Part shown: piece after piece, positions 7,343-48,212 of the stretch
Layout of the letters: each line of letters begins with the position of its first letter
How positions within the stretch are numbered: the first letter of the stretch is position 1
Assembly: GCF_025998535.1 (NCBI RefSeq)
Contig: NZ_AP024233.1
Span: 806,001 to 870,000, forward strand
Length of the DNA: 64,000 nt
Direction of reading: 5' to 3'
DNA from: Desulfolithobacter dissulfuricans
GTDB lineage: Bacteria > Desulfobacterota > Desulfobulbia > Desulfobulbales > Desulfobulbaceae
The notes under the pieces: generated by a model
What the model was told of the DNA's origin: nothing
The model's database searches: none
What the model saw: only the letters and a program-made list of their open reading frames with translations
Program-made: the position numbers and the translations under genes

Positions 7343-8176
7343 ATGAAAGTGGAGCAGCAGTACATAAATTTAAGCAGTGATCAGCTCCGGGCCTATCTGG
7401 CCGGACATGCCGAGGAGGAGTACGTACTGGTGGATGTGCGCCAGCCCGAGGAGTATCGGCGTGGTCATATTCCCGGCGCCCGGCTCCTGCCCCTGGCCGA
7501 GCTGGGCGCCCGGCTGCCGGAACTGCCAACGGATCGGGATATCATCTTTTACTGACGTTCGGGCAAACGGTCGCAGGCTGCGGCTCTGTTTACTTCGGCC
7601 AGCGGGTTCATCCGAAAAACCATCTATAACCTCCAGGGTGGCATGCTCGGCTGGAACGGCGAGGTGCTGCCCGACTTTCCGGCCCTGCGAGTATTTGATC
7701 TGGAGACTGATCCCCGCAATCTCCTCTACACGGCCATGGATCTGGAGCGGGGTGCACAGCGTTTCTACACCATGGTGCTTGAGAAATATCCAGACCAGTC
7801 CTTTTCCGGGGCCATCGACCTGCTGGCCCGGGCCGAGGAGGGTCATGCCCGGCTGGTCTACAACTACTGGGCCCGCGACCAGGACAGCGTGCCCCCCTTT
7901 ACACCACTGTATGAGGCCCTGCCCGGCGATATCCTTGAGTCCGGCCAGGATGTGGAGGAGATGGTGGCCCGTTTCGACCGGCTCAAGGGGCCGGCCTGTG
8001 TCAATGTGGTGGAAATGGCGCTTTCCATAGAGATGGCCGCCTATGATCTGTATCGCAACATGGCGCACCGTTTTTCAGGTACGGAAATGGAGGCGCCCTT
8101 TCTGGCCCTTGCCCAGGCGGAAAAGGAGCATATGCGGATCGCCGCCGATGCTCTCCTGGGCTGCGCAGGTTCGTGA
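7343..8176 (+). CDS. Rhodanese/ferritin-like fusion selenoprotein (in-frame UGA at 7553-7555)
   Basis: 277 residues if the UGA at 7553 is read as selenocysteine. The N-terminal half is a rhodanese domain (VDVRQPEEYRRGHIPGA, DRDIIFY), and the UGA falls exactly where the catalytic Cys of the CRSGxRS loop belongs, followed in frame by RSGKRSQAAALF and GGMLGWNGE. The C-terminal half is a four-helix ferritin/rubrerythrin-type domain with two E-x-x-H pairs (EEGHARL, EKEHMRI) and matching helix glutamates (DLERGAQRFY, EMALSIEMAAY). A hairpin lies 14 nt past the UGA. The true stop is also TGA (8174-8176). Start at 7343 with AAGGTGAGGA upstream. selB lies 4.3 kb away. Likely a sulfur- or peroxide-handling enzyme; the substrate is unknown. 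If the UGA were a stop, only a 70-residue fragment without active site would be made. Confidence 0.88.
7570..7584 (+). promoter_or_regulatory. Candidate bacterial SECIS hairpin
   Basis: GTCGCA pairs with TGCGGC (one G-U pair) around a GGC loop. The apical loop lies 21-23 nt after the UGA, within the spacing that SelB needs, and carries the loop G typical of bacterial SECIS elements. Based on hand folding only. Confidence 0.6.
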
Positions 8177-12448: not shown

Positions 12449-14374
12449 TTATTTTTTGCGTAGCACCCGTTTGTCGCCGATGCGGATGGTGAGCTTGATC
12501 CGGTCGAAATACTCGAGCAGTGGGATGGAGAACTTGCGGGTCAGGCCGGTGAGTTCCTTGAACCGGGGAGCGTCGATTTCCCCCTCTTTTCTGATGTGGT
12601 CGGTGAGTCTTTCCGCCAGGGTATCGATTTCCCGGCTGTGGAAGTAAAGGGACTCTGTCACCTTGACCAGGATTCCCTCCTGCAGGAGCAGGTCAATGAC
12701 CTGGCGGATCTGTTTTTCGGGAAACTCCTCGAAAGTGGCCAGCACGTCTTTCAGGTTAGGCGGCCGCAGGCCGGCTTCGCGGTACAGACCGGTGATCTTT
12801 TCCTGCATCTCTTTCTCGTCCACCTGGAGAGTGACCTCGTGGCCTGACAGGCGCACCTCGGCCCCCTCGACAGCGATCTGTCCCTTTTTCGTCAGGGTGG
12901 AAAGTATATAGGAGAACAGTTTGGCATCCAGCGGCGGTCGCAGCCGCGAGCGGAGTTCTTCCTTGGCCAGGCCGCTCTTGAGCGGATTTTCCCGGTGGTA
13001 TGCGGCCAGGATATCCAGCACCCTTTCTTTGATGCCCTCCACCACCGGCGCCGCCACATAGCGCTGGTTTTCCGAGTCCACCACCAGGATCCTGCCGGTG
13101 GAGACCGGCTGCTGGAGCTGTTTTTTCAGTTTCTTGCCAAAGATACCCAGCCGGGTGGCCAATTGATCGGCGGTGAGTCCCTGTGGACCGCTTTCCTCCA
13201 GGAAGAGCAGCATCCGTTCATCCAGACTGCCGCTCCGGTAAATATGGAATATCTCCCGGTTGCGGGTCCGGTCCCGACTGGCAGTGCGCTTACGTTTGGG
13301 CGGCGCGTTGTTTAAAATGGTGCCGCCGCCGATGGTGGTGACCGGTGAGTAGGAGCGCAGGACATACCGATCCCCGGGCCATACAGCCGCGGGTTCCTGG
13401 AGGATCAGCTGCACGGCCGCATCCTCGCCGGGCATCAGGGTATCGGTTTCCAGCAGGACAACCCGGCCGATGATTTCCCTGGTGCCCACATGAACCCGGA
13501 CCTGGGTCCGGTTCTTGAGCTCCCGTTCGTTTTCCGCCAGGTAGTGGAAGTCGACGTCCAGCAGGGTCGAGGGGGTCAGGCTGCCCGGCGTGGCGGCCAC
13601 GTCGCCCCGGTTGATCTCCTCCTTTTCAATTCCCTGCAGGTTGATCGCGGTCCGGTGGCCGGCCTCCACCAGCTCCACATCCTGGCCATGGACCTGGATG
13701 CCGCGGATCTTGGCCTGCAGTTCGCCGGGATAGAACATCAGATCGTCGCCCACGCCGATACGGCCGGAAAGCGAGGTCCCGGTGATGACCGTTCCGAAGC
13801 CCTTCATGGAAAAGACCCGGTCCACCGCCAACCGAAAGGGACCGAACTCTTCGCTGAAGTCCAGGGCTGCGACCTTTTCGTCCAGCACTCTGAGGACCTC
13901 GTCAATGTCTTCACCTGTCACCGACGATACGGTCAAGAGCGGCGCCTCTTCAAGAAAACTTTCCGTGAAGAACTCCTGTACCTCCTCCTGGACCATCTCC
14001 AGCCATTCCTCGTCCACCATGTCCTTCTTGGTCAGGATGATGATGCCGTCCCGGACGCCAAGCAGACGACAGATATCAAAATGTTCTTTTGTCTGGGGCA
14101 TGATCCCTTCATCGGCGGCAATGATAAAGGCCACCAGGTCCATACCTGCGGCACCGGCAACCATGTTGCGGACAAATTTTTCATGGCCGGGCACATCGAC
14201 GATCCCGATCCGGTGGCCGCAGGGTAGATCAAGATGGGCAAAGCCGAGCTCGATGGTGATTCCCCGTTCCTTTTCCTCCTTGAGCCGGTCTGTTTCGATG
14301 CCGGTCAGGGCCCGGATGAGGGAGGTCTTGCCGTGATCGACATGTCCTGCTGTGCCAAGAATAATTTCACGCAT
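12449..14374 (-). CDS. selB: Selenocysteine-specific elongation factor SelB
   Basis: 641-residue GTPase that carries Sec-tRNA to UGA codons marked by a SECIS hairpin. GTPase motifs G1 GHVDHGKT (residues 10-17), RGITIELGFAHL, DVPGHEKFV and LTKKD, then EF-Tu-like domains 2 and 3, then the C-terminal winged-helix repeats that bind SECIS RNA (from about residue 380). Length is normal for the family. It is the last gene of a minus-strand run mrp - MBL hydrolase - selB, with about 170 bp separating it from the hydrolase. selA, selC and selD are not in the window. Its presence supports Sec readthrough in the rhodanese gene at 7343. Confidence 0.96.
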   Translation of the reverse strand: MREIILGTAGHVDHGKTSLIRALTGIETDRLKEEKERGITIELGFAHLDLPCGHRIGIVDVPGHEKFVRNMVAGAAGMDLVAFIIAADEGIMPQTKEHFDICRLLGVRDGIIILTKKDMVDEEWLEMVQEEVQEFFTESFLEEAPLLTVSSVTGEDIDEVLRVLDEKVAALDFSEEFGPFRLAVDRVFSMKGFGTVITGTSLSGRIGVGDDLMFYPGELQAKIRGIQVHGQDVELVEAGHRTAINLQGIEKEEINRGDVAATPGSLTPSTLLDVDFHYLAENERELKNRTQVRVHVGTREIIGRVVLLETDTLMPGEDAAVQLILQEPAAVWPGDRYVLRSYSPVTTIGGGTILNNAPPKRKRTASRDRTRNREIFHIYRSGSLDERMLLFLEESGPQGLTADQLATRLGIFGKKLKKQLQQPVSTGRILVVDSENQRYVAAPVVEGIKERVLDILAAYHRENPLKSGLAKEELRSRLRPPLDAKLFSYILSTLTKKGQIAVEGAEVRLSGHEVTLQVDEKEMQEKITGLYREAGLRPPNLKDVLATFEEFPEKQIRQVIDLLLQEGILVKVTESLYFHSREIDTLAERLTDHIRKEGEIDAPRFKELTGLTRKFSIPLLEYFDRIKLTIRIGDKRVLRKK

Positions 14375-35484: not shown

Positions 35485-37575
35485 GTTTGCCCGGCATGGC
35501 GGGCAAACCCAGCCTGCGGAACGCAGGCGTCACCCCGACCAGGGGGAAGACAATCCGAATCGCAAGGGCGTTGCTGGCAACGGCAGGGTCTGAAGGAAGC
35601 GATAGGAAGTGAGCGGTACATAGCGTAAGTGAACCTGATTCGGCGTCATAGGTGGGTAAGCGTGCACAATAGCGTGAAGCCCGATACCTGGTCAGACCTT
35701 TGGCGTGATTGAGGATGGGATTGCTCACCGGGAGTTCGCCTTAACCGGGGAAGCCTCCTAGCGTACTTGCAGTACGAGAGTTAAGGAAGGTTCAAGGAGA
35801 GATCCAAGGCCTACCGAAGCGGTGGGAGGTGGCAGATGATTCCGTAGTAGTGATGAAATCCCGGCCGGAGAAGCCTGGTAACAGCGTGGAGGATAAAACC
35901 GGGATGACCTGTCAGCGTTGTTTGACAGGGGCTGGTATTTGCCAAAAGCGGTATCAGTTGCGAAGGGATGAAGTTTATTTGAAGGTTCCCTGAAGATCAT
36001 GGAGGTCTGGAGTCAGAACACAAGCTGCCCGACGGGGCGGGGCACATTTTCGGCGGTATGCTGTGAGAGGCCGTCTGCTGATTTTGGCCGTTCATCGGAG
36101 TAACCTGAACAGTTGAGCGTACATTGCCCATTGGGATAGAAGGCGCTCTCATTTGGGTGAAGACCCGGGGATTCCAGGCAGAAGTGGAGGGATGGGGACG
36201 CAGGACAGGAGCATGGTTGACGTTTGGTACAGTCTGTATGACCGGATGCTGAGCAGGGACGCTCTGCACAAGGCGTTTGGGAAGGTGAGGTCTGCGAAGG
36301 GAGCTGCCGGAATAGACGGCCAGTCCATCAAGGACTTTGCCGCATCAGCCGAAGCCAACATCGACTGTCTCCTGAAGGAACTGTGGGAAAAGAGTTACCA
36401 GCCACTGGCCGTGCGCCGGGTAGAGATACCCAAGCCAACCGGAGGAGTTCGGTTGCTCGGTATTCCAGCAGTCCGTGACCGTGTAGTGCAGCAGGCACTG
36501 CTCGACATTCTCCAGCCGATATTCGATCGGGATTTCCACCCGTCGAGCTATGGCTATCGCCCAGGCCGCAGTTGTCATCAGGCGATATCCAAGGCGACGA
36601 TGTTTATCCGTGACTACGATCGAAAGTGGGTAGTTGATATGGATCTGTCCAAATGCTTTGACACCTTGGACCATGATCTCATCCTCAGCGCCTTTCGTCG
36701 CCGGATCAGGGACGGGAGTATCCTCGGTCTCCTGGAGAAGTTTCTGAAGAGCGGTGTAATGACGGATTCGGGATTTACGGCTAGCGAGATCGGCAGTCCA
36801 CAGGGCGGCGTGATCAGCCCTCTGATAGCCAATGTGTATCTCGATTCTTTTGATCAATTCATGAAGAATCGTGGCCACCGAATAGTCCGCTATGCGGACG
36901 ATATCCTGATTCTGTGCCAATCAAAGAAAGCGGCCGAGAATGCTCTTGAGCAGGCACGGCACTATCTTGAAGGAGAATTGCTGCTGACTGTCAACCGTGA
37001 AAAGACCCATATCTGCCACAGCAGTCGGGGCGTAAACTTTCTGGGAGTATCCGTATGCTCTCAGTATACGCAAATCCAGCGAGGCAAGATTAAGTCTTTC
37101 AAGGCAAAGGTCAAGGCAATGACCCGGCGTAATTCCCCGGTGAATCTTGAGAAAGTGATTGCAGATCTCAATCCGCTCTTGAGGGGATTTGCCAACTACT
37201 TCCGGATAGCGAACTGCACAGGAGAATTTTCAAGGCTGATGAGATGGATTCGGAGAAGACTGCGAGCCATCCAGCTGAAATTGTGGAAGAAGCCCAATCG
37301 GCTTCACCGCAGGCTGAGGCAGCTTGGATACAGGGGGAAGTTTGATGCGATCAAAATGAACTCCTGGGCCAATGCGGCAAGTCCTTTGAGCCATTATGCC
37401 CTGCCCAACGGATATTTACACCGGGGCTTGGGTCTCTTTGATCTTGGTGCTGTATCTACTGGAATCTCTGTTTCAATATGAAGGAAAATAAACAGGAGCC
37501 GTATACGAGACCCGTACGTACGGTTCTGTGAGAGGGATGAGGCAAGCGTAATTAACTTGCCTCACCCTACTCGAT
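35485..37575 (+). mobile_element. Group II intron 1 (class C type)
   Basis: About 2.09 kb. The 5' end GTTTGCCC...GGGCAAAC is shared with the two other introns. Near the 3' end, domain V (GAGCCGTATACGAG / CGTACGTACGGTTC) and domain VI (GATGAGGCAAGC / CTTGCCTCACCC) are followed by CTACTCGAT. It sits directly behind a terminator, the known habit of class C introns. It is a diverged relative of introns 2 and 3. Boundaries are uncertain by 1-2 bases. Confidence 0.88.
36213..37481 (+). CDS. ltrA: Group II intron reverse transcriptase/maturase (intron 1)
   Basis: 422 residues from the ATG at 36213 (MVDVWYSLYDRML); a longer frame opens at 36153 but lies in structured intron RNA, and introns 2 and 3 start at the equivalent ATG. 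RT domains with RPGRSCHQAI, DMDLSKCFDT, GSPQGGVISPL and the catalytic YADD (RYADDILIL near residue 226), then maturase domain X (SFKAKVKAMTRRNSPVNLE...). No HNH endonuclease domain, as in class C introns. Uninterrupted. Confidence 0.93.
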   Translation: MVDVWYSLYDRMLSRDALHKAFGKVRSAKGAAGIDGQSIKDFAASAEANIDCLLKELWEKSYQPLAVRRVEIPKPTGGVRLLGIPAVRDRVVQQALLDILQPIFDRDFHPSSYGYRPGRSCHQAISKATMFIRDYDRKWVVDMDLSKCFDTLDHDLILSAFRRRIRDGSILGLLEKFLKSGVMTDSGFTASEIGSPQGGVISPLIANVYLDSFDQFMKNRGHRIVRYADDILILCQSKKAAENALEQARHYLEGELLLTVNREKTHICHSSRGVNFLGVSVCSQYTQIQRGKIKSFKAKVKAMTRRNSPVNLEKVIADLNPLLRGFANYFRIANCTGEFSRLMRWIRRRLRAIQLKLWKKPNRLHRRLRQLGYRGKFDAIKMNSWANAASPLSHYALPNGYLHRGLGLFDLGAVSTGISVSI

Positions 37576-37619
37576 TGTTCCATGGATAATACTGGTGAGC
37601 TCTGGCCGTGCGGGGTTAA

Positions 37620-37639
37620 ATTTCCGAAAAATCGGAAAT
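37620..37639 (+). promoter_or_regulatory. Perfect hairpin overlapping the start of the PAS regulator
   Basis: ATTTCCGA - AAAA - TCGGAAAT, an 8-bp perfect stem covering the A and T of the first possible ATG (37638). It could be an operator, or an RNA hairpin that blocks initiation there; in the latter case the next ATG at 37668 would be used. Confidence 0.4.
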
Positions 37640-39251
37640 GTTTTTGGCAAAACCAGGGCGTCATGCTATGATATTGGAAAATTCTCCTAAAACATTACGA
37701 TTCTCAGAATCCCAGGACAGCAAGCCTTCTGTGTCAAATACTGCAACAGAGCTGCAAAAGACCCGCGACGAGGTCAACCGTCTTGTTCATAACTGGCAGA
37801 CATTGCTCGATGTTATGCCGGAGATGGTGTTCCTCGTGCGCGATGATTTTATCATCGAGTACATGAACCGCAGTGCCAAGGCCTGTTTCGGTGATCTCTG
37901 CTCCCGGTCCTGCTGTGATGACCTGCGCCAGATCTGTGCCGACTGCAGAATCTTTACGCCCGAGGAATCAGACGCTGCTTCCGCCACCACAGCGCATAAA
38001 CTGACCGAGGCGGTGGTCAAGGGGATCTCTGTTGAATATTCGGCAGTGCCGTTTATCGGCTATACCGGGGAGCAGCTGATCATGATTGTCATGCGCGATA
38101 TTTCCCAGCGCAAGCTTCATGAACAGGAGATCAGCGATTTCAATACCAATATTGAAAAGATTCTGGAGCAGAAGATTGCCGAACTCCAGGAGAGCGAAGA
38201 GCTCCGGCGCCGTCTCTCACGCCAGGTCAACAGTCTGAAAAACCAGTTGGGCTTTCATCACCGGGCCGACAAGATGGTTGGGTCAAGCAGGGCCATGCGT
38301 GAGCTGCGGGAGATGGTTCACCAGGTGGCCAGGTCCGATGCCACCATTCTGATCACCGGAGAGTCCGGAACCGGCAAGGAGCTGGTGGCCAATCTGATCA
38401 AGGAGACCAGTAACCGGGCAGACAAGCCTTTTCTGAAGATCAACTGCAACGCCATCAATGATTCCATCCTGGAGAGTGATCTGTTCGGGTACGAAAAAGG
38501 CGCCTTTACCGGGGCCACAAGCCGGAAAAAGGGTAAGTTCGAGATCGTCAACGGCGGGACCATCTTTCTCGACGAGATAGGGGATATCAGCTCCAGGATG
38601 CAGGCCTCTCTTCTGCGGGTCCTGCAGAACGGCGAGATTATCCGGGTGGGCGGCACCGAGCCTGTCAAGGTGGATGTCCGGGTGATCGCCGCCACCAATG
38701 TCGACCTGGCCAAGGCGGTGCAGGAGAAAAAATTCCGCCTGGATCTCTATTACCGGCTCAACATCATCAATATCGACATCCCGCCGCTGCGGGAACGCAA
38801 GGAAGATATCGTCGAGCTGGTATCTCATTTTGTCAATCATTACCGGGAGGCCTTCAAGAAGGATATCGATTTCGTCCCCAAGTCGATCATCAACCGGTTG
38901 CTGCTGCATGACTGGCCCGGTAATGTGCGTGAGCTGGAAAACCTGATCCAGCGGGCCGTGCTCATGGCCAAGGGCAAGATGATCACCGAGCAGGACCTGT
39001 TCTTTGATCAGAATAAGTTCGGTATAGATGGGGAAAACCGCAGCCTCGACGTCCAGAGCCGGATCGGTGTCCTGCCGCTGAAGGGTATCCTGGCCGAATT
39101 TGAGCGCGAAGTCATCGAGCAGGCCCTGCGCAAGTTCAAGGGCAATGTCTCCCGGGCCGCGACCGAGCTCAAAGTGGGCAAGACCGCCCTGTACGACAAG
39201 ATGAAACGTTATAATATCTCCGCCAAGGCGATCAAGAAAGGAGTCGCCTGA
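37638..39251 (+). CDS. PAS-domain sigma-54-dependent transcriptional activator
   Basis: 537 residues (527 if started at the ATG at 37668). N-terminal PAS domain (about residues 50-155) with a striking Cys cluster (CFGDLCSRSCCDD, ICADC), seen in many PAS proteins of sulfate reducers and possibly a redox or cofactor site. A coiled linker, then AAA+ with GESGTGKE near residue 240 and GAFTGA near 288, and a C-terminal Fis-type helix (AATELKVGKTALYDKMKRYNI). No receiver domain, so it senses directly. Likely candidate activator of the sigma-54 promoter before the PEP-CTERM gene at 40364 (inference). Confidence 0.92.
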   Translation: MFLAKPGRHAMILENSPKTLRFSESQDSKPSVSNTATELQKTRDEVNRLVHNWQTLLDVMPEMVFLVRDDFIIEYMNRSAKACFGDLCSRSCCDDLRQICADCRIFTPEESDAASATTAHKLTEAVVKGISVEYSAVPFIGYTGEQLIMIVMRDISQRKLHEQEISDFNTNIEKILEQKIAELQESEELRRRLSRQVNSLKNQLGFHHRADKMVGSSRAMRELREMVHQVARSDATILITGESGTGKELVANLIKETSNRADKPFLKINCNAINDSILESDLFGYEKGAFTGATSRKKGKFEIVNGGTIFLDEIGDISSRMQASLLRVLQNGEIIRVGGTEPVKVDVRVIAATNVDLAKAVQEKKFRLDLYYRLNIINIDIPPLRERKEDIVELVSHFVNHYREAFKKDIDFVPKSIINRLLLHDWPGNVRELENLIQRAVLMAKGKMITEQDLFFDQNKFGIDGENRSLDVQSRIGVLPLKGILAEFEREVIEQALRKFKGNVSRAATELKVGKTALYDKMKRYNISAKAIKKGVA

Positions 39252-39411
39252 TTCCAGTCCCTTCTCACTTCTTTCTTACCTTTGAGCCGTTTTCCCTGTA
39301 ATTTTCTATCGTTTCCTGGTTTGTTTTTTGCATGGCATTGAGGTTATAGTATATTTCTGCGTCTTCTGGCCTCCTGCTGAAAAATAAACCCAGAGAGAGA
39401 AACGACTGAAC

Positions 39412-39969
39412 ATGGCAACCCACGCGCAAAATCCGAGCTGTGAAAAGGTGTGTCCCCACTGGTCCCCTGCATCGAGGAGCTGCCTGCTCAGTCGTGGTGG
39501 CCTGTACCTGCCGGTCTCGGCCCACGTGGCGACCTACTGCCGGACCGAAAACTATCTCTCCTGTCCCCAGTTTGTCAGTGGCGGGCTGGTTGCGGAATCT
39601 GCAGCCGATGACTCGGTCGGTACCGGGGCGGAGAGGAGAATGTATGTCCGTGTTCCTGGACGTTTTGTGCTGCGTATTGCCCGTCATGCCGATGGTGATT
39701 CAGTGGACCGGATCATCGATGATTCCGCCTCCACCGTGGATATCAGCCTGGGGGGGCTCAGGGTGGAGAGCTACCGGGAACTGCCTGTGGACAGTCTGGT
39801 GACCTTTTCGCTCAATGGCGATTTTTCCAGCGAGCCGGTCAAGGGAGTCGGCCGGGTTGCCTGGTGCCGGTCCCTGGAGCAGGCTCCTCTTTACCACGCT
39901 GGCCTGGCCTTTGAAGACGTCCGCCTGGCCTCCATGCTGGAGAAGCGTCTGGGGTTGGTCCCGTTCTGA
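39412..39969 (+). CDS. PilZ-domain protein (c-di-GMP effector)
   Basis: 185 residues. N-terminal 65 residues contain eight scattered Cys (CEKVCPHW, SCLLS, YCRTENYLSCPQ), suggesting a metal or redox site. The C-terminal PilZ domain has the c-di-GMP signature ERRMYVRVPGRF (RxxxR type) and DISLGGLRVES (D/NxSxxG). Links c-di-GMP, for which two GGDEF proteins occur later in the window, to an unknown output. Same orientation as its neighbours. Confidence 0.88.
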   Translation: MATHAQNPSCEKVCPHWSPASRSCLLSRGGLYLPVSAHVATYCRTENYLSCPQFVSGGLVAESAADDSVGTGAERRMYVRVPGRFVLRIARHADGDSVDRIIDDSASTVDISLGGLRVESYRELPVDSLVTFSLNGDFSSEPVKGVGRVAWCRSLEQAPLYHAGLAFEDVRLASMLEKRLGLVPF

Positions 39970-40278
39970 TTCCGTTTTTCCGGAAATCTGGATCTTGTAT
40001 ATCTTGTTGATATTTCATTATATTTTCTTTATTTTTCCGTAACTTCTATCTGTTTTTCTTTCTTTCCGTCTGGTTTTTCCGAAAAAAAAATCGGGTTCTG
40101 GTCCCGGCCAGCCTCTTTTTTCTCTCCACAGGCTTCCTGGTTGTGGCCAGTTTCTTTTCGATGCCTTTTTGTCTGATCTGAGACGAGTGGATGTTCAGGT
40201 TGTTTTTTATGTGTTATCAGTTGGTTGTGGAGGTGGTGGTTTCCAGGGTTTCTGTGCATGATTCTTTCTGGATGGATA

Positions 40279-40294
40279 TGGCATGCTCCGTGCA
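40279..40294 (+). promoter_or_regulatory. Sigma-54 promoter for the PEP-CTERM gene
   Basis: TGGCAT-N5-GTGCA, GG and GC 10 bp apart, 70 bp before the ATG. The rest of the 39970-40363 gap is T-rich without frames. PEP-CTERM genes in other bacteria are known to be driven by RpoN with the PrsK/PrsR system. Confidence 0.7.
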
Positions 40295-40363
40295 TTTCAG
40301 TGGTAAACCATGTTGCCTGAAAGCTGGATTGTATTGAGCAAATTTTAAAGGAGGGAAATTCTG

Positions 40364-41014
40364 ATGAAAAAAATGTTTTTGACAAGCGCGGTGCTCGCCA
40401 TCGCAGGGGTAGGTCTGGTGGCTGGGAGTGCGATGGCATTGGGATTTAGCTCTACCGGTTATGTTGATCCCAATTATAATGATTCCTGGGATAGTACTTC
40501 TTTGACAGGAACGGCACTGTTCGAATTTTATATCGATGAAACCTGGCCACAGGTTAACAGAGTAACAATCGAACTTGATGATGACATTTTTACCGGTATA
40601 ACGGCCTCTGATTTTACAGTACTAAATCCTTCCGGCTGGACAACGAGTGTCTATACAGGAACCAGTGGCAACGTATTTGATGTGAGTCTGGCAGGGGTAC
40701 TGGCCACCTCAACAAACGATCCCATCCAGATAACGTTTGATTATACGCTTCTTGACGAAGACATGTATGATAACGCTTCTGAAGGAGTTCCAGGAGGTTG
40801 GGACTGGGATGAAGGACAGGCCTGGGGGTTGGCTTACACATTAGACTACGGTTTCTATACACCTCACCCTTTGACAGGAAGTCCTGTCTTTGTAGCCCTG
40901 GACACTTCTGGAGGTTCCACTGCCCCTGTCCCCGAACCGGCCACCATGCTGCTCTTTGGTACCGGTCTGGCCGGACTGGCCGGAGTTGTTCGCAAGAAGC
41001 GCAAAAACAGCTGA
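40364..41014 (+). CDS. PEP-CTERM sorting-domain surface protein
   Basis: 216 residues. Signal peptide (MKKMFLTSAVLAIAGVGLVAG, cut near AMA), an acidic, aromatic-rich beta-type body with no recognised domain, and the C-terminal sorting signal VPEPATMLLFGTGLAGLAG followed by RKKRKNS. The tripartite signal is the substrate of an exosortase (not in the window) and marks exopolysaccharide-associated or surface proteins. AGGAGGG ribosome site. Own sigma-54 promoter and terminator. Confidence 0.93.
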   Translation: MKKMFLTSAVLAIAGVGLVAGSAMALGFSSTGYVDPNYNDSWDSTSLTGTALFEFYIDETWPQVNRVTIELDDDIFTGITASDFTVLNPSGWTTSVYTGTSGNVFDVSLAGVLATSTNDPIQITFDYTLLDEDMYDNASEGVPGGWDWDEGQAWGLAYTLDYGFYTPHPLTGSPVFVALDTSGGSTAPVPEPATMLLFGTGLAGLAGVVRKKRKNS

Positions 41015-41056
41015 TTCTGTCCTGTCTGATGGCCGTTGGGCCGTCATCTCAGGGAA

Positions 41057-41094
41057 AAACCGCCGCTGGCAGAGATGCCCGGCGGTTTTTTTTT
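41057..41094 (+). terminator. PEP-CTERM gene terminator, target of group II intron 2
   Basis: AAACCGCCG / CGGCGGTTT with a T run to 41094; the intron begins at 41096. Confidence 0.85.
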
Positions 41095-41095
41095 A

Positions 41096-43187
41096 GTTTG
41101 CCCGGCATGGCGGGCAAACCCAGCCTGTGTTAAGCAGGCGTCACCCTGACCAGGGGGAAGACAATCCGAATCGTAAGGGCGTTGCTGGTAACGGCAGGGT
41201 CTGAAGGAAGCGATAGGAAGTGAGCGGCACATAGCGCAAGCGAACCTGATTCGGCGTATCAGGAGGGTAAGCGTCCTAAATAGCGCGAAGCCCGATACCT
41301 GGTCAGTCCTGATACGTGATTGAGGATGTGGTCGCTCACAGGGAGTTCGCCTTAACCGGGGAAGCCTTGCACTGTTTCCGCATTAAGCGGAAAAAGAGAA
41401 GCACAAGGAGAAATCCAAGGCGGATCGAAGCGGTGTGAGGTGGCAGATGATTCCGTAGTAGTGATGAAATTCCGGCCTGTGAAGCCTGGTAACAGTGTGG
41501 AGGATAAAACCGGGATGACCCAACGGCCTGGTTCGTTGGGGGCAGTTATGAGCCAAAAGCCATATCTGTTGCGAAGGGATGAAGTTTATTTGAAGGTTTT
41601 CCGGAATCTATGGACACCTGGCAGACTGAACACAAGCCGTCCGACGGGACGGGGCACGCTATCGGCGGTATGCCGTGACAGGTCCTCTGCCGATTTTGGC
41701 CGTTCATCGGAGTAGATGGGAGTGTTGATCGTATATTGCCCATGAGGATAGAAAGCGGTCGCGCCCATTGAAGAACCGAAGTCTCCACGTGGAAATAGAG
41801 GAAGGGAAACGCAGGACAGGAGCATGGTTGACGTCTGGTACAGCCTATATGATCGAATGCTGAGCCGGGAGAACCTGGTCAAGGCATTCTACAAGGTGAA
41901 ATCCTCGAAAGGAGCTGCCGGTATAGACGGCCAGTCCATCGATGATTTTGCCGGATCACTTGCGACCAATATCGATCATCTCCTGACGGAACTGCAGGAC
42001 AAGAGCTACCAGCCGCTGGCCGTGCGACGGGTGGAGATCCCGAAGCCGAACGGCGGGAAACGGCTACTCGGCATACCTGCAGTCCGTGACCGTGTGGTAC
42101 AGCAGGCCCTGCTGGATATACTTCAACCAATATTTGACCGCGATTTCCATCCGTCGAGCTACGGCTACCGTCCTGGTCGGAGTTGTCACCAGGCAATCAG
42201 CAAAGCCACGATGTTCATCCGGACGTACGAGCGGAAATGGGTAGTGGACATGGATCTGTCGAAATGCTTCGACACGTTGAACCATGACCTGATCCTTGCC
42301 TCGTTCCGTCGCCGGGTCAGCGATGGAAGTATTCTTGGTCTGCTGGAGAAGTTTTTGAAAAGCGGTGTTCTGACAGGAGATGGTTGGCAGGCCAGCGAGG
42401 TCGGCAGTCCGCAGGGCGGAGTTATCAGCCCGTTGATTGCCAACGTATACCTTGATTCCTTCGATCAGTTTATGAAGAATCGTGGCCACCGCATCGTCCG
42501 CTATGCGGACGACATCCTGATCCTGTGCCAGTCAAAGAGCGCAGCCGAAAATGCACTGAACCAGGCCAGTCGTTATCTTGAAGAAGAACTGCTGTTGACC
42601 GTCAACCAGGAAAAGACCCATATAAGCCACAGCCTCAAAGGGATTAAATTTCTTGGAGTTTGTATCCACTCCGTGATGACCCGAATACAGCGAGGCAAGG
42701 TGAGGGCCTTCAAGGCAAAGGTCAAGGCGATGACCCGGCGTAACTCCCCGGTGAACCTTGAGAAGGTGATAGCCGACCTCAACCGGTTGCTGAGGGGTTT
42801 TGCCAACTACTTTCGGATAGCGAACTGCAAGGGTGAGTTTTCTCGGCTGATGAGGTGGATCAGAAGACGGCTGCGTGCTGTTCAGTTGAAGCTGTGGAAA
42901 AAGCCGTGCAGGCTACACCGCAGACTGAGACAGCTGGGCTATAGAGGAGAGTTCAAAAGTATCAAGATGAACTCCTGGGCCAATGCAGCAAGTCCACTGA
43001 GCCATTATGCCCTTCCCAACAGCTGCCTGCATGGGGAAATGGGGCTCTTTGACCTCGCATCTGTACAGACCGGAATTTCTGTTTCAGTATGAAGGAAAAA
43101 TAAACAGGAGCCGTATACGAGGCCCGTACGTACGGTTCTGTGAGAGGGATGAGGCAAGCTTAATTACCTTGCCTCACCCTACTCGAT
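41096..43187 (+). mobile_element. Group II intron 2 (class C type)
   Basis: 2092 bp, GTTTGCCC at the 5' end to CTACTCGAT at the 3' end, with domains V (43108-43139) and VI. Same length as intron 3, and every landmark is offset by exactly 7117 bp, so the two appear to be identical copies. Inserted two bases behind a terminator T run. Confidence 0.92.
41824..43092 (+). CDS. ltrA: Group II intron reverse transcriptase/maturase (intron 2)
   Basis: 422 residues, identical in sequence to the maturase of intron 3 and similar to that of intron 1. RT core with YADD (RYADDILILCQ), maturase X domain, no endonuclease domain. It splices and reverse-transcribes its own intron. Intact. Confidence 0.95.
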   Translation: MVDVWYSLYDRMLSRENLVKAFYKVKSSKGAAGIDGQSIDDFAGSLATNIDHLLTELQDKSYQPLAVRRVEIPKPNGGKRLLGIPAVRDRVVQQALLDILQPIFDRDFHPSSYGYRPGRSCHQAISKATMFIRTYERKWVVDMDLSKCFDTLNHDLILASFRRRVSDGSILGLLEKFLKSGVLTGDGWQASEVGSPQGGVISPLIANVYLDSFDQFMKNRGHRIVRYADDILILCQSKSAAENALNQASRYLEEELLLTVNQEKTHISHSLKGIKFLGVCIHSVMTRIQRGKVRAFKAKVKAMTRRNSPVNLEKVIADLNRLLRGFANYFRIANCKGEFSRLMRWIRRRLRAVQLKLWKKPCRLHRRLRQLGYRGEFKSIKMNSWANAASPLSHYALPNSCLHGEMGLFDLASVQTGISVSV

Positions 43188-43357
43188 TTGCCTTTTAAGC
43201 CTGGACAGAGCAATCTGCCCTGCAGCTTGTGCTTGACAGTATCCTGAATCCGTGACGGAAAAAGTACTGTTTTGGGTTAGCTGCCTTGAATTTCAATCAA
43301 AATGAAGAGATTATATTGGGTTTTCCAATGCACCCATTTATAATGGAGCCGCCCTTC

Positions 43358-43462
43358 GGGAGCTGGACTTTCACCGCATCCGCTGCGTCATCAACCCATT
43401 GATAGAGCGTCACTCTAATCAATGGGCCTCTTCCTTGCGCCTGCGGCGAAATTCCAGCTTCA
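43358..43462. repeat. Foldback repeat (imperfect inverted repeat, about 105 bp)
   Basis: The left arm GAGCTGGACTTTCACCGCA pairs with a right arm whose complement reads GAAGCTGGAATTTCGCCGCA; the inner stem CCCATTGAT-AGAG / CTCT-A-ATCAATGGG is nearly perfect. It lies in the 43188-43558 gap before the AmpG-like gene, which otherwise shows nothing. MITE-like or REP-like; a single copy here. Confidence 0.6.
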
Positions 43463-43558
43463 CGGATTCAGGAGTATCGGATAACCGCGGGAGTATTCCT
43501 GCCCGAGGATACCAGCCCCCTGTGTCTGGTCCTTTTTTCTTCGCGTCCTTCGTGAGTT

Positions 43559-44782
43559 ATGAATTCCATGTTCCGTCTCATCTTCTCACCCCGCATGCTG
43601 GTCTCCTTCCTCATGGGTTTTTCCTGCGGGGTGCCGCTGCTGCTGACCCTGTCGGTGCTCCAGGCCTGGATGCGGGAAGAGGGAGTGGATCTTTCAGTCA
43701 TCGGCCTGTTCTCCCTGGTCGGGCTTCCCTATACCCTGAAATTTCTCTGGTCGCCGATCCTGGACCGGTTCACCCTGCCGCTCTTTGGCCGCCGCCGGGG
43801 CTGGCTCCTGCTGTTCCAGATTCTGCTCATGGCAGCCATTGCCGGCCTGGGCATGACCCGGCCGGCCGTTCATCCCTGGATGGTGGCCGTGGCCGCTCTG
43901 CTGGTCACCTTTTTTTCCGCCTCCCAGGATATCGTGGTCGATGCCTTTCGGCGTGAAGACCTGAGTGACAACGAACTTGGCCTGGGGTCTTCCCTGTACG
44001 TAAACGGCTACCGGGTCGGGATGCTGGTCGCCGGCAGCGGCGGCTTGATCCTGGCCGATCATTTCACCTTCCACCAGGTCTATCTCTTCATGGCGCTTTG
44101 TCTCCTGCCCGGGGTGCTGACAACGCTGCTCTGTCGGGAACCCGAGGTGGCCGAGGGGACACCGACCACCTTCCGGGAAGCGGTTGTCCAGCCCTTTGTC
44201 GAGTATTTTCAGCGTGACGGGGCCCTGCTTATTCTGCTCTTCATTCTCCTCTACAAGATCGGCGACCAGATGGCCTCGACCATGACCACGCCCTTTTATC
44301 TCGATGTGGGCTTTACCAAGACCCAGATCGGCGCGGTGGCCAAACTGTTCGGCTTCTGGGCCACCATCATCGGCGGCCTGGTGGGCGGGGTTATTCTCCT
44401 GCGCCTGGGTATTGTCCGCTCGCTGTGGATTTTCGGTATCCTCCAGGCGGTCTCCACGGCCGGTTTTTCGTTACTGGCCTTTCTCGGTCCCAGCCTGGCC
44501 GGGCTGGCGGCGGTCATCGGCTTTGAAAATCTCACCGGCGGCATGGGCACCGCCGCCTACGTAGCCTACATGGCCTCGCTGACAAACAAAAAATTCACCG
44601 CCACCCAGTATGCCCTGCTGTCCTCGCTCATGGGCATCCCCCGGGTGCTGGCCTCGGCACCCACGGGCTTCATGGCCGATTCCATGGGCTGGGCCTTCTA
44701 TTTTTTCTTCTGTGCCCTGATCGCCGTGCCGGGCCTGCTGCTGCTGCGTTTTGCCGGTCCCCTGGCAGCCGGGACGCAATGA
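43559..44782 (+). CDS. AmpG-like MFS permease
   Basis: 407 residues, about 12 membrane helices. GFSCGVPLLLTLSVLQAWMR, the loop FLWSPILDRF and FFSASQDIVVDAFRRE are typical of AmpG muropeptide permeases, which import GlcNAc-anhydroMurNAc peptides for recycling. Fits with nagZ at 58482, which acts next in that pathway, although the two are not in one operon. The first ATG (43559) and ATG 43568 are both possible. Confidence 0.85.
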   Translation: MNSMFRLIFSPRMLVSFLMGFSCGVPLLLTLSVLQAWMREEGVDLSVIGLFSLVGLPYTLKFLWSPILDRFTLPLFGRRRGWLLLFQILLMAAIAGLGMTRPAVHPWMVAVAALLVTFFSASQDIVVDAFRREDLSDNELGLGSSLYVNGYRVGMLVAGSGGLILADHFTFHQVYLFMALCLLPGVLTTLLCREPEVAEGTPTTFREAVVQPFVEYFQRDGALLILLFILLYKIGDQMASTMTTPFYLDVGFTKTQIGAVAKLFGFWATIIGGLVGGVILLRLGIVRSLWIFGILQAVSTAGFSLLAFLGPSLAGLAAVIGFENLTGGMGTAAYVAYMASLTNKKFTATQYALLSSLMGIPRVLASAPTGFMADSMGWAFYFFFCALIAVPGLLLLRFAGPLAAGTQ

Positions 44783-44982
44783 TCCTTTCGTTTAGGGCCC
44801 ACTATTGGTATATATACTCCATTGGCGAAAGGGGAAATATTGTCCTGTACCTGGCAGGTTGTCCCCGGTCGAGCACGTTATGATATTTTTGACCCGGCAA
44901 ATCGCCTCCCCGCCCGGTCACCGGATCGGGGGCTCAGACGAACAATCAGCAATACTGAACTCATAACCCACAACACCCCATC

Positions 44983-46446
44983 ATGCCTGTTAAGATATAC
45001 AACACCCTGACCCGGAAAAAAGAAGAACTCCGCCCCCTGGAAGAGGGCCATGTCAAACTCTATGTCTGCGGTATTACCTCGTATGATTACTGCCATATCG
45101 GTCATGCCCGCTCGGCCCTAGTTTTCGACATGGTGGTACGCTATCTTCGCTACCGGGGCTACCGTGTTACCTTTGTTCGCAACTTTACCGACATCGATGA
45201 CAAGATCATCCGCCGGGCCGCCGAGCAGGGGGTGGAGGCGAGCGATCTGGCCCAGCGTTTTATCGATGAATTTTACACGGACATGGACCATCTGGGTGTG
45301 CTTCGTCCCGATATCGAGCCTCGGGCGACCGAGCATATCCCGGAAATGATCGCGCTGATCGAGGAACTGATCGAGCGCGGCCTGGCCTATGCCTCTGGCG
45401 GTGACGTCTATTTCCGGGTTGGACGGTTTCCGGACTATGGACAGCTTTCGGGCCGCAGCCTGGAGGATATGCAGGCCGGGGCCCGGATCGAGGTCAATGA
45501 TCAGAAAGAACATCCCATGGATTTCGTTCTCTGGAAGGCCAGCAAACCCGGGGAGCCGAAATGGGACAGCCCCTGGGGCGAGGGGAGGCCGGGGTGGCAT
45601 ATCGAGTGCTCTGCCATGAGCCGCAAGTATCTGGGCGAGACCTTTGATATCCACGGCGGCGGCAAGGATCTCATCTTTCCCCATCATGAGAATGAGATCG
45701 CCCAGTCCATGGGCGCCACGGGCAAGCCTTTTGCCAACCTCTGGATGCACCACGGTTTTGTGACCATCAAGGATGAGAAGATGTCCAAGTCCCTTGGCAA
45801 CTTCCTTACCATCCGCGATGTGCTCGCGGCCTATGCGCCCGAGGTCCTGCGGCTGTTCATTTTTTCGACCCAGTACCGCAATCCCCTGGATTTCACCGAG
45901 GCTGCCATGCGCGACGCCGAATCGGGCCTGGCCCGGATGTACGAATGCCTGGCCCGGATCAACGCCCTGGCCGATGGATCGCCGGAGGCAGAAACGGTTA
46001 TCGGTAAAAAGGATCGGCAGAAACTGGCCTCCCTGCGGCAGCGGTTTGAATATGCCATGGATAATGATTTCAATACCGCCCAGGCCGTGGGCTTGCTCTT
46101 CGACGCGGTGAAGACGCTCAACAAGATTACCCGGGCGTTGCCGGCCAGCCCGGCCGAGGACGATGTTGCGACCCTGCGCCGGGCAGCAGCGGACCTGCGT
46201 GAACTGGGCGGGATCCTGGGGCTGCTGGGACAGGATCCGGCGGACTACGTGGCGGCCAGGAAACAGGCCTTGCTGGACAAGCTGGATATATCGGATGAGG
46301 AAATCGAAGAACTCATTGCCCGGCGGAGCGAGGCCCGTAAAAATCGGGACTGGGCCACCAGTGACGCCATCCGGGACAAACTGCTCGGCCACGGGATCGA
46401 ACTCCAGGACAGCCAGGATGGCACCACCTGGGATGTAACTCTCTGA
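44983..46446 (+). CDS. cysS: Cysteinyl-tRNA synthetase
   Basis: 487-residue class I synthetase. Zn-binding Cys29 (YVCGITSYDY), the HIGH motif CHIGHARS (residues 36-43), the second zinc ligands in GWHIECSAMS and PHHENEIAQS, and KMSKSLGN near residue 265. C-terminal DALR and helical domains. Standard length. No T-box or other leader was recognised in the 200-bp upstream gap. Confidence 0.97.
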   Translation: MPVKIYNTLTRKKEELRPLEEGHVKLYVCGITSYDYCHIGHARSALVFDMVVRYLRYRGYRVTFVRNFTDIDDKIIRRAAEQGVEASDLAQRFIDEFYTDMDHLGVLRPDIEPRATEHIPEMIALIEELIERGLAYASGGDVYFRVGRFPDYGQLSGRSLEDMQAGARIEVNDQKEHPMDFVLWKASKPGEPKWDSPWGEGRPGWHIECSAMSRKYLGETFDIHGGGKDLIFPHHENEIAQSMGATGKPFANLWMHHGFVTIKDEKMSKSLGNFLTIRDVLAAYAPEVLRLFIFSTQYRNPLDFTEAAMRDAESGLARMYECLARINALADGSPEAETVIGKKDRQKLASLRQRFEYAMDNDFNTAQAVGLLFDAVKTLNKITRALPASPAEDDVATLRRAAADLRELGGILGLLGQDPADYVAARKQALLDKLDISDEEIEELIARRSEARKNRDWATSDAIRDKLLGHGIELQDSQDGTTWDVTL

Positions 46447-46484
46447 TGGCGTCGTAAAAACTTCGATCTACTGCGTCGTGTGTC

Positions 46485-46532
46485 CCAGGGCGACTCTCGA
46501 CATACTATATGTATAGTCGAGATCCGCCCTGG
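46485..46532. repeat. Long imperfect palindrome (48 bp)
   Basis: CCAGGGCG...CTCGACATAC pairs with GTATAGTCGAG...CGCCCTGG around a 5-base centre. No T run follows, so it is more likely a dispersed foldback element than the cysS terminator. The rest of the 46447-46757 gap shows no convincing gene. Confidence 0.6.
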
Positions 46533-46757
46533 AGCACTACTCCTCGGAGTCTACGCTTACCTGTATCTCTGTGTTTTTACTTAGCCATCTTTGAAAAAGA
46601 AACTGACTTTTTACGAGTTTATACTCTCTAAGTACCCGTTTTTTGTTTCGGTCCTCGACAGGGTCCACTTCGATGGTTATATAATTTTTCAGAGTACCGT
46701 CATGTCGCGCGGATACCCTGGAATTTACCGGATCCATCAAGGGAAAGGAGGAGAGGT

Positions 46758-47558
46758 ATGACACGGATGCCTGCTGTTGCCGACCAGTTTTATCCCGGAG
46801 ATCCGGTGGCGCTGCGCCGGACCCTGGACGAGCTGATTCCATCGGTCAGGGAAAAAACCGGAGCACTGGCCGTTATTTCGCCCCATGCGGGCTATGTGTA
46901 TTCCGGGGCTGTGGCCGGGGCGACCTTTGCCCGGGTGAACATACCCCGGACCGCGGTTATCCTGGGGCCGAATCATCACGGCCGGGGCGAACCGCTGGCC
47001 CTCGGGGTGACGGACTGGAGCATGCCGCTGGGTCCGGTGCCTGTCGAGCGCCAGCTGGCGGTTTCCATCCTGCGTCGTTCCGAGGTGATTGTCGATGACG
47101 ATATCGCCCACCGCTACGAGCACTCCCTGGAAGTTCAGGTCCCGTTCCTGCAGTACTTCCGGGAAGATCTCAGTATCGTGCCCATCTGTGCCTCCCATGT
47201 TTCCTACGCTGTCTGCGAGCAGGCGGCCCGTGACCTGGCCCTGGGTATCCGGGATTTCGGAGAGCCGGTCCTGCTGGTGGCCAGCACCGACATGACCCAC
47301 TATGAGCCGCGGGAGAGTGCGAGCCGCAAGGACAGTGTGGCCCTGCAACGGATCCTGGCCCTGGATCCCGCAGGGCTCTACGAGACCGTGCTCGCCAATC
47401 GGATCTCCATGTGCGGGGTTATTCCCACCACCATTGTCCTGCTCACCGCCATCGAACTGGGGGCAAGCCGGGTCGAGCTGGTCCGGTATACCGATTCCGG
47501 AGAGGTCAGCGGCGATACCTCCCAGGTCGTGGGCTATGCGGGGCTGGTGATCCGCTGA
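46758..47558 (+). CDS. amrB: AmmeMemoRadiSam system protein B (MEMO1-like)
   Basis: 266-residue protein of the MEMO1 family, structurally related to extradiol dioxygenases. Conserved metal-site-like motifs SPHAGYVYSG, GPNHHGRGE, EHSLEVQVPFL, and STDMTHYEP. In many bacteria it is found with AmmA and a radical-SAM protein; neither is in the window, so the gene stands alone here. Ribosome site GGAAAGGAGGAG upstream. Reaction unknown. Confidence 0.92.
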   Translation: MTRMPAVADQFYPGDPVALRRTLDELIPSVREKTGALAVISPHAGYVYSGAVAGATFARVNIPRTAVILGPNHHGRGEPLALGVTDWSMPLGPVPVERQLAVSILRRSEVIVDDDIAHRYEHSLEVQVPFLQYFREDLSIVPICASHVSYAVCEQAARDLALGIRDFGEPVLLVASTDMTHYEPRESASRKDSVALQRILALDPAGLYETVLANRISMCGVIPTTIVLLTAIELGASRVELVRYTDSGEVSGDTSQVVGYAGLVIR

Positions 47559-47725
47559 GTTGGCCGGCAATCAACACCGTAAAGTGGTTGTTCGGTAAAG
47601 GACAGGGGGTGGCTGGTGTCCCGTTGCGCCGGCGCACCATGTGGCCGGCCTGACAGCGCAGCCACAGGCTCTGGAAAAAATGAGCGCTGTATCAGGGTAA
47701 AGATATCAGGACCGGTGAATTTTGC

Positions 47726-47754
47726 TTGACATCGGGAGCCAATAACTCTATTTT
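47726..47754 (+). promoter_or_regulatory. Promoter of tRNA-Gln
   Basis: TTGACA - 17 bp - TATTTT; the tRNA starts 23 bp past the -10 box. Confidence 0.75.
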
Positions 47755-47776
47755 CTTGTCCACCTTCCCGGCGAGC

Positions 47777-47851
<75 letters not shown>

Positions 47852-47911
47852 TTTTTTCTCCATATCTGTTTTTCTTTTTTCCCCTGAAGATGCTCCTTGC
47901 TGAAGCAACTG

Positions 47912-48154
47912 TGCTGTTTGCCGCGTCCGGCCTCGTTCAGCGTAGTGGTCGTACTGTTCCCGCGTAAGACCTCACAGGCCCCCCATCTTTGAGCGGTCGC
48001 GTCTGTCCGCATAGAGGGGGGGCTATAGCGGCCAGCCACGACTACTCAAATATGAGGCGCCTGAGAGGTCTTACATTATTTCCCTTGAAATATCAGTCTG
48101 GTGCGAACCCTGTGATGGGTTACGGCTTTATGCACCGTCAGGAACGGGTAACAG
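47912..48154 (+). ncRNA. Candidate structured RNA of unknown family
   Basis: Between tRNA-Gln and a strong terminator lies a gene-free stretch with long-range pairing: a perfect 10-bp stem GTAAGACCTC (47964-47973) / GAGGTCTTAC (48065-48074); inside it AGGCCCCCC / GGGGGGGCT capped by GCGG / CCGC; a second domain GGTGC-ACCC / GGGT-GCACC (about 48099-48136); and an outer CTGTT..CCG..TCC / GGAACGGGTAACAG pairing. A competing GTAGT/ACTAC stem also exists. 6S RNA was considered but not confirmed. It could instead be a foldback repeat. Confidence 0.4.
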
Positions 48155-48177
48155 AAGAAAAAGAAAAAAAGAATAAA

Positions 48178-48211
48178 AAAAGGGACCCGAACACCTGTCC
48201 GGGTCCCTTTT
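48178..48211 (+). terminator. Strong terminator, target of group II intron 3
   Basis: Perfect 12-bp stem AAAAGGGACCCG / CGGGTCCCTTTT. There is no protein gene in front of it on this strand for 600 bp, so it should end a non-coding transcript. Confidence 0.88.
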
Positions 48212-48212
48212 A

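Follow-up and report, generated by a model that had tools for sequence, protein, structure and literature searches.

The closest described proteins are the rhodanese-like selenoproteins with a UxxG motif (PF00581), which a 2026 review (PMC13188914) lists as 'form 2' and 'form 4'. In these proteins the selenocysteine (Sec) has U-x-x-G spacing, as in the U-R-S-G of the protein analysed here, a fusion of a rhodanese with a ferritin-like domain. The words ferritin and rubrerythrin are absent from the main text of that review, and its example proteins, MBM9537886.1 and MCY3690685.1, may or may not belong to the fusion family. Sec rhodaneses lacking the UxxG motif are found in the earlier papers PMC9312934, PMC2398784 and PMC5029168, the main texts of which likewise contain no ferritin or rubrerythrin wording. 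In the text available, the genome paper of Desulfobacterium autotrophicum (PMC2702500) reports 31 Sec proteins, most of them named only in a supplementary table. Our literature search found no paper on a Sec rhodanese-ferritin-like fusion; the 2007 selenoproteome of the Olavius symbiont and supplementary tables may list one.

The window, i.e. the whole stretch of 64,000 nucleotides that was analysed, comes from the genome of Desulfolithobacter dissulfuricans (a single contig of 3.6 Mb), and the fusion gene occupies 7343–8176 on its plus strand. The frame contains a single internal UGA (7553–7555, plus strand) and ends with the stop at 8174–8176, giving a protein of 277 aa if the UGA is read as Sec. 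By codon comparison this UGA, residue 71 in the motif ...DIIFY-U-RSGKRSQAAALF, stands at the place of the rhodanese catalytic Cys, and the frame runs on into the C-terminal half, both as a previous sequence-only reading of this DNA had claimed. The N-terminal half contains a rhodanese-like domain (7409–7660, plus strand, residues 23–106) that matches Pfam PF00581 with 74.3 bits against a cut-off of 22.2 (E 1.2e-20), and the C-terminal half was assigned to a ferritin-like di-iron domain (7685–8164, plus strand), with residues 222–270 matching the Pfam family Rubrerythrin (E 4.7e-9). Rhodaneses of the sulfurtransferase type have an active loop of six residues, C(U)-x-x-G-x-R. The active loop of the fusion protein, U-R-S-G-K-R, also has six residues, and we take the domain to be of this type; its residues D31, R33, H42, G74, R76 and S77 are conserved in the copies read. 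The nearest named relatives are Desulfobulbaceae and Desulfobulbus assemblies. Elsewhere in the window, group II intron pieces are spread over 35571–50304, with three D1-D4-3 and two Intron_gpII matches.

A first scan of genome contigs yielded 16 loci. The fusion is present, wholly or in part, in 15 of these, with TGA at the aligned codon in 11 and TGC or TGT in 4. The extended set, in which all TGA-bearing matches listed without a locus so far (36) and 44 matches listed without a stop were sampled, comprised 125 hits and, after removal of 14 duplicates of the same stretch, 111 distinct copies. These include L020, from a named Desulfosarcinaceae assembly outside the genome set of the host's order, and exclude L022, a partial Betaproteobacterial rhodanese with Cys. 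With the window gene counted in, the codon for residue 71 is TGA in 48 of the 111 copies and Cys (TGC or TGT) in 63, a ratio that is a product of the sampling and not a frequency. All 111 copies have one or the other at this place, no other TGA position occurs inside the match, and further stops are found there in neither the Sec (0/48) nor the Cys copies (0/63). The copies could be divided into a near subfamily (37 copies; 13 TGA and 24 Cys) and a far subfamily (74 copies; 35 TGA and 39 Cys). The sequence-only reading had held that relatives with Cys at this codon would settle the matter, and the 63 Cys copies are such relatives; it had also named the lack of any homologue across both halves as speaking against it, and both halves are spanned by all 63 Cys copies and by 46 of the 48 Sec copies, the other two Sec copies being partial. 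The fusion is commoner than that reading supposed: the fusion profile has matches (E ≤ 1e-30) in 188 of the 257 genomes of the host's order and, in a sample of 395 genomes of the host's phylum, in 103, and the matches listed include partial ones. Matches in the phylum were counted, and the TGA place was read in those that were among the copies already read from the host's order.

On a maximum likelihood tree (quick search, SH-aLRT support, 110 rows, residue 71 masked, the partial copy L100 excluded), the Sec/Cys state changes 9 times, compared with about 36 in shuffles, and starred branches require at least 8 of the 9. In 16 pairs of Sec copies, dN/dS on the 3' side of the UGA is 0.06–0.30. 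Because so many relatives have Cys at the same place, the reading of the UGA as Sec is firm, and the comparison of copies indicates that the fusion gene very probably encodes a real selenoprotein. An ATG-initiated ORF (7643–8176) behind the UGA would fit the opposite reading, in which the UGA is a true stop and the locus consists of a short rhodanese fragment plus a separate ferritin-like gene, or of a decayed gene; this is extremely improbable, since the 63 Cys copies are all open over both halves and since the hairpin and wobble results given below, the dN/dS values and the full Sec machinery of the host argue against it. A true stop or pseudogene was therefore rejected, the Sec copies also having no second stop. 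Sequencing error (TGC to TGA) was rejected as well, because the TGA recurs at this codon, together with the conserved hairpin stretch, in 12 further near copies from separate genomes. One fusion relative (G391:C40:7472-8254) has a single in-frame TAG rather than a TGA, which may represent pyrrolysine, an error or decay. In viral contigs, 8 stretches fit a pattern, none of them related to the fusion.

A putative bacterial SECIS hairpin lies behind the UGA at 7569–7585 (plus strand), with the stem formed by 7569–7575 and 7579–7585 and the loop GGC at 7576–7578. The sequence-only reading had placed a hairpin at 7570–7584, 14 nt past the UGA; the hairpin is present, but those limits cover only the inner six pairs of the full stem, which begins 13 nt behind the UGA. 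Taken alone, the window hairpin is not unusual, with a fold z of +0.51 and a stability that 129 of 200 shuffles equal or exceed, and its stem gives a p value of 0.10 against synonymous recodings. Single-sequence RNA folding, not being significant, was rejected as proof of a SECIS element, and the support for the window hairpin comes from the comparison across relatives rather than from the single gene. Stems of at least 5 pairs are found in 48/48 Sec copies, and in 47 of them the first or second base of the loop is G, whereas any stem of this length occurs in 16/63 Cys copies. A G early in the loop and a stem in register 47 or 48, which starts 10–13 nt behind the UGA in the Sec copies, are combined in 46/48 Sec copies and in 1/63 Cys copies, the latter having the one Cys stem in this register; the best stems of two Sec copies, L038 and L039, are in another register. 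Single stems reach p < 0.05 in 14/48 Sec and 3/63 Cys copies. The Cys member L048 has a 10-pair hairpin (L048:1705-1752) right behind the Cys codon, in a register unlike that of the Sec hairpins.

The stem in register 47 or 48, a register picked after the data were seen, tracks Sec in an average of 7.8 out of 8 independent pairs on the tree and never goes in the opposite direction (sign test, median p 0.008, range 0.008–0.016). With the looser definition of any stem of 5 pairs (47/47 Sec versus 16/63 Cys tree rows), the median p is 0.03 (range 0.016–0.25). The targeted stem test separates Sec from Cys copies with p values, which ignore relatedness, of 8e-6 in the near and 2e-10 in the far subfamily. 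When the total fold energy of 48 nt is compared, Sec and Cys copies are not separated in the near group (p 0.27, Mann-Whitney) and are separated in the far group (p 3e-6, relatedness again ignored). At codons 76, 77, 78 and 80, the wobble entropy is 0 in the 13 near Sec copies and 1.5–1.9 bits in the 24 near Cys copies. The near Sec copies are more closely related among themselves than the Cys copies are, and their wobble entropy is lower overall for that reason. What counts is therefore the drop at the hairpin codons relative to the adjoining ones, and in these Sec copies the codons on either side of the hairpin codons do vary at the wobble position. In the arginine codon 76 it is the first base that changes (CGG/AGG), with the third base kept. 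No covariation was found in the near group, and slight covariation (3 cells) was found in the far group. As register 48 is used by 11 of the 13 near Sec copies and register 47 by 34 of the 35 far Sec copies, the hairpin may have arisen or shifted independently in the two subfamilies.

The host possesses the genes needed to decode such a UGA: selA (637.4 bits), selD (351.8 bits, with an in-frame TGA), a tRNA-Sec (73 bits, anticodon tca) and selB. The last of these, encoding the Sec-specific elongation factor with SelB winged-helix and beta-barrel Pfam domains, is located in the window at 12449–14374 on the minus strand, and the 4.3 kb given for it by the sequence-only reading is correct as the distance from the end of the fusion gene. 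That reading had also regarded a genome lacking selA, selC and selD as counting against Sec, and the genome lacks none of these functions. The in-frame TGA in selD (L032, G000:C1:2931160-2932086 of the host genome) suggests that the host SelD is probably itself a selenoprotein as well. In the host's order, selA is found in 211 of the 257 genomes, so its presence is a weak discriminating test. Among the listed matches, TGA copies come from 48 genomes, and selA was found in 44 of these. The four without a SelA match are G006, G059 and G061 (63–87% complete) and G126 (97% complete), with tRNA-Sec over the cut-off in G006, G061 and G126 and under it in G059. G126, which has the TGA form of the fusion, and likewise G117 and G127, all three single-contig genomes 97% complete, gave neither a SelA nor a SepSecS match and have both tRNA-Sec and SelB (L152, L153, L155, L159, L161 and L162). 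The missing SelA in these three genomes may be due to a gap or a masked stretch, or Sec-tRNA may be made by another route.

The C-terminal half appears to adopt a ferritin-like fold, judging from its sequence. Its predicted di-iron ligands, E135, E165, H168, E230, E260 and H263, form the pattern E...ExxH...E...ExxH and include the two ExxH pairs (E165-H168 and E260-H263) that had been noticed in the sequence-only reading. Each of the six is kept in 36–37 of the 37 near copies, one of which is truncated, and in 73–74 of the 74 far copies, one far copy having D instead of E165 and K instead of H168. E199 (window 7937–7939), which is outside the usual six ligands, is kept in 110 of the 111 copies, the other being truncated. 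The profile of the C-terminal half matched TM1526 (PDB 1vjx) with an E value of 4e-7, all six ligands being paired in the alignment, and symerythrin with an E value of 0.0017. This conservation bears on the possibility that the protein is a plain sulfane-sulfur transferase or persulfide reductase, with the ferritin-like domain having a structural or a regulatory (oxygen- or iron-sensing) role. The rhodanese loop is complete and the conserved residues named above agree with such an activity, but six di-iron ligands retained in two far-apart subfamilies would be needless for a merely structural bundle, although a sensing role would likewise need them. On balance, this explanation is distinctly unlikely.

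Neighbouring genes were clustered by BLAST and one representative was annotated for each of nine clusters; there are 17 clusters with at least 4 members, 8 of which are without annotation. In the window, the fusion gene has a divergent DUF4405 gene upstream, the cluster of which recurs next to 12 other near copies, and an LplT-like MFS gene, starting 15 nt behind the fusion stop, and then a cation ATPase gene downstream, with no redox partner among these neighbours. A DsrC-like gene is located downstream of 5 near copies, all with Cys. In the far subfamily, a Pyr_redox (pyridine-nucleotide-disulfide) flavoprotein cluster provides the next downstream gene in 26 of the 71 loci with a downstream ORF read. 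In one mostly-Cys clade of far loci, the second gene upstream encodes a flavodiiron protein in 8 loci (7 with Cys), the next downstream gene encodes an MBL-rhodanese in 7 loci (6 with Cys) and an unknown protein is encoded upstream in 7 loci; a Fur/PerR-like gene is near 4 loci of the far subfamily. We infer that the neighbourhood points to sulfane sulfur and oxygen stress. The downstream flavoprotein of the far loci (e.g. L144:643-1968) resembles TIGR03169, the flavoprotein domain fused to the N-terminus of SelD (244.6 bits, cut-off 310), and, weakly, a selenoprotein type III sulfide:quinone reductase.

The same genes can be read in terms of supply, with the Sec rhodanese giving sulfur or selenium and the ferritin-like domain giving or storing iron, for example in Fe-S cluster repair or in the delivery of selenide to SelD. 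A rhodanese and an iron-type domain in one chain, together with the below-cut-off likeness of the far downstream cluster (26/71) representative to TIGR03169, would suit this explanation. Nevertheless, we consider it unlikely, since the ligand set is of the compact di-iron type seen in rubrerythrin-like proteins and since the flavodiiron, MBL-rhodanese and PerR-like neighbours suggest oxygen or peroxide. Fe-S assembly genes are represented in 0/9 of the annotated neighbour clusters, a weak argument because 8 of the 17 clusters with at least 4 members are without annotation.

The explanation we favour is that a Sec-for-Cys rhodanese and a ferritin-like di-iron domain are joined in one chain, decoded with SelA, SelB, SelD, tRNA-Sec and the hairpin 13 nt behind the UGA; as a description of the gene and its predicted product, this is highly probable. 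For the chemistry, it is quite possible, if somewhat short of probable, that sulfane-sulfur or redox chemistry at the selenolate feeds the di-iron site. The selenolate would accept sulfane sulfur, the donor being polysulfide, thiosulfate or a low-molecular persulfide, to form a selenosulfide (Se-S) or, alternatively, would be redox-cycled by thiols and a flavoprotein partner; electrons from the selenolate would then pass to the di-iron site for the reduction of peroxide or oxygen, the rhodanese standing where classical rubrerythrin has rubredoxin. The function put forward in the sequence-only reading, selenolate sulfur transfer combined with a di-iron peroxidase or reductase, is a plausible proposal. 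The role of the protein would be in oxidative-stress and sulfane-sulfur control in sulfur-metabolising anaerobes. More specifically, the protein may be a selenium-dependent sulfane-sulfur/peroxide enzyme in which the Se-S intermediate replaces rubredoxin as electron or sulfur source for a di-iron peroxidase/oxidase, in a family with repeated Sec/Cys and SECIS swaps; in this complete form the proposal is doubtful.

With these data, the bacteria of the host's order gain a selenoprotein family that is widespread and has two domains; ordinary gene finding would end its genes early, at the UGA. Relatives have switched between Sec and Cys repeatedly, a hairpin being gained or lost with each switch, and so provide natural matched pairs for two questions: i) what selenium buys a rhodanese, and ii) whether a di-iron site can be served by a rhodanese.

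When the fusion protein is set beside known families, none of its 20 NCBIfam matches covers both halves. It shares a rhodanese domain and selenoprotein nature with the rhodanese-related (seleno)protein family NF041203 and with TsoB (NF045694), but scores 25.2 bits against a cut-off of 115 for the former and 22.1 bits against a cut-off of 805 for the latter. With rubrerythrin and its rubredoxin-less relatives (symerythrin and ferriperoxin), as these are described in the sources available, it shares a ferritin-like domain with carboxylate/His ligands. It differs from rubrerythrin in having an N-terminal Sec rhodanese and in that no rubredoxin-like domain is present among its Pfam matches. The best match to the whole C-terminal domain is TM1526, a putative ferritin-like di-iron-carboxylate protein, which, unlike the fusion, is a 157-residue chain without a rhodanese. 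HydR, a [FeFe] hydrogenase-rubrerythrin chimera, also combines a redox partner and a rubrerythrin in one chain; as presented in the accessible text of PMC11926857, its partner is a hydrogenase, with no rhodanese and no Sec.
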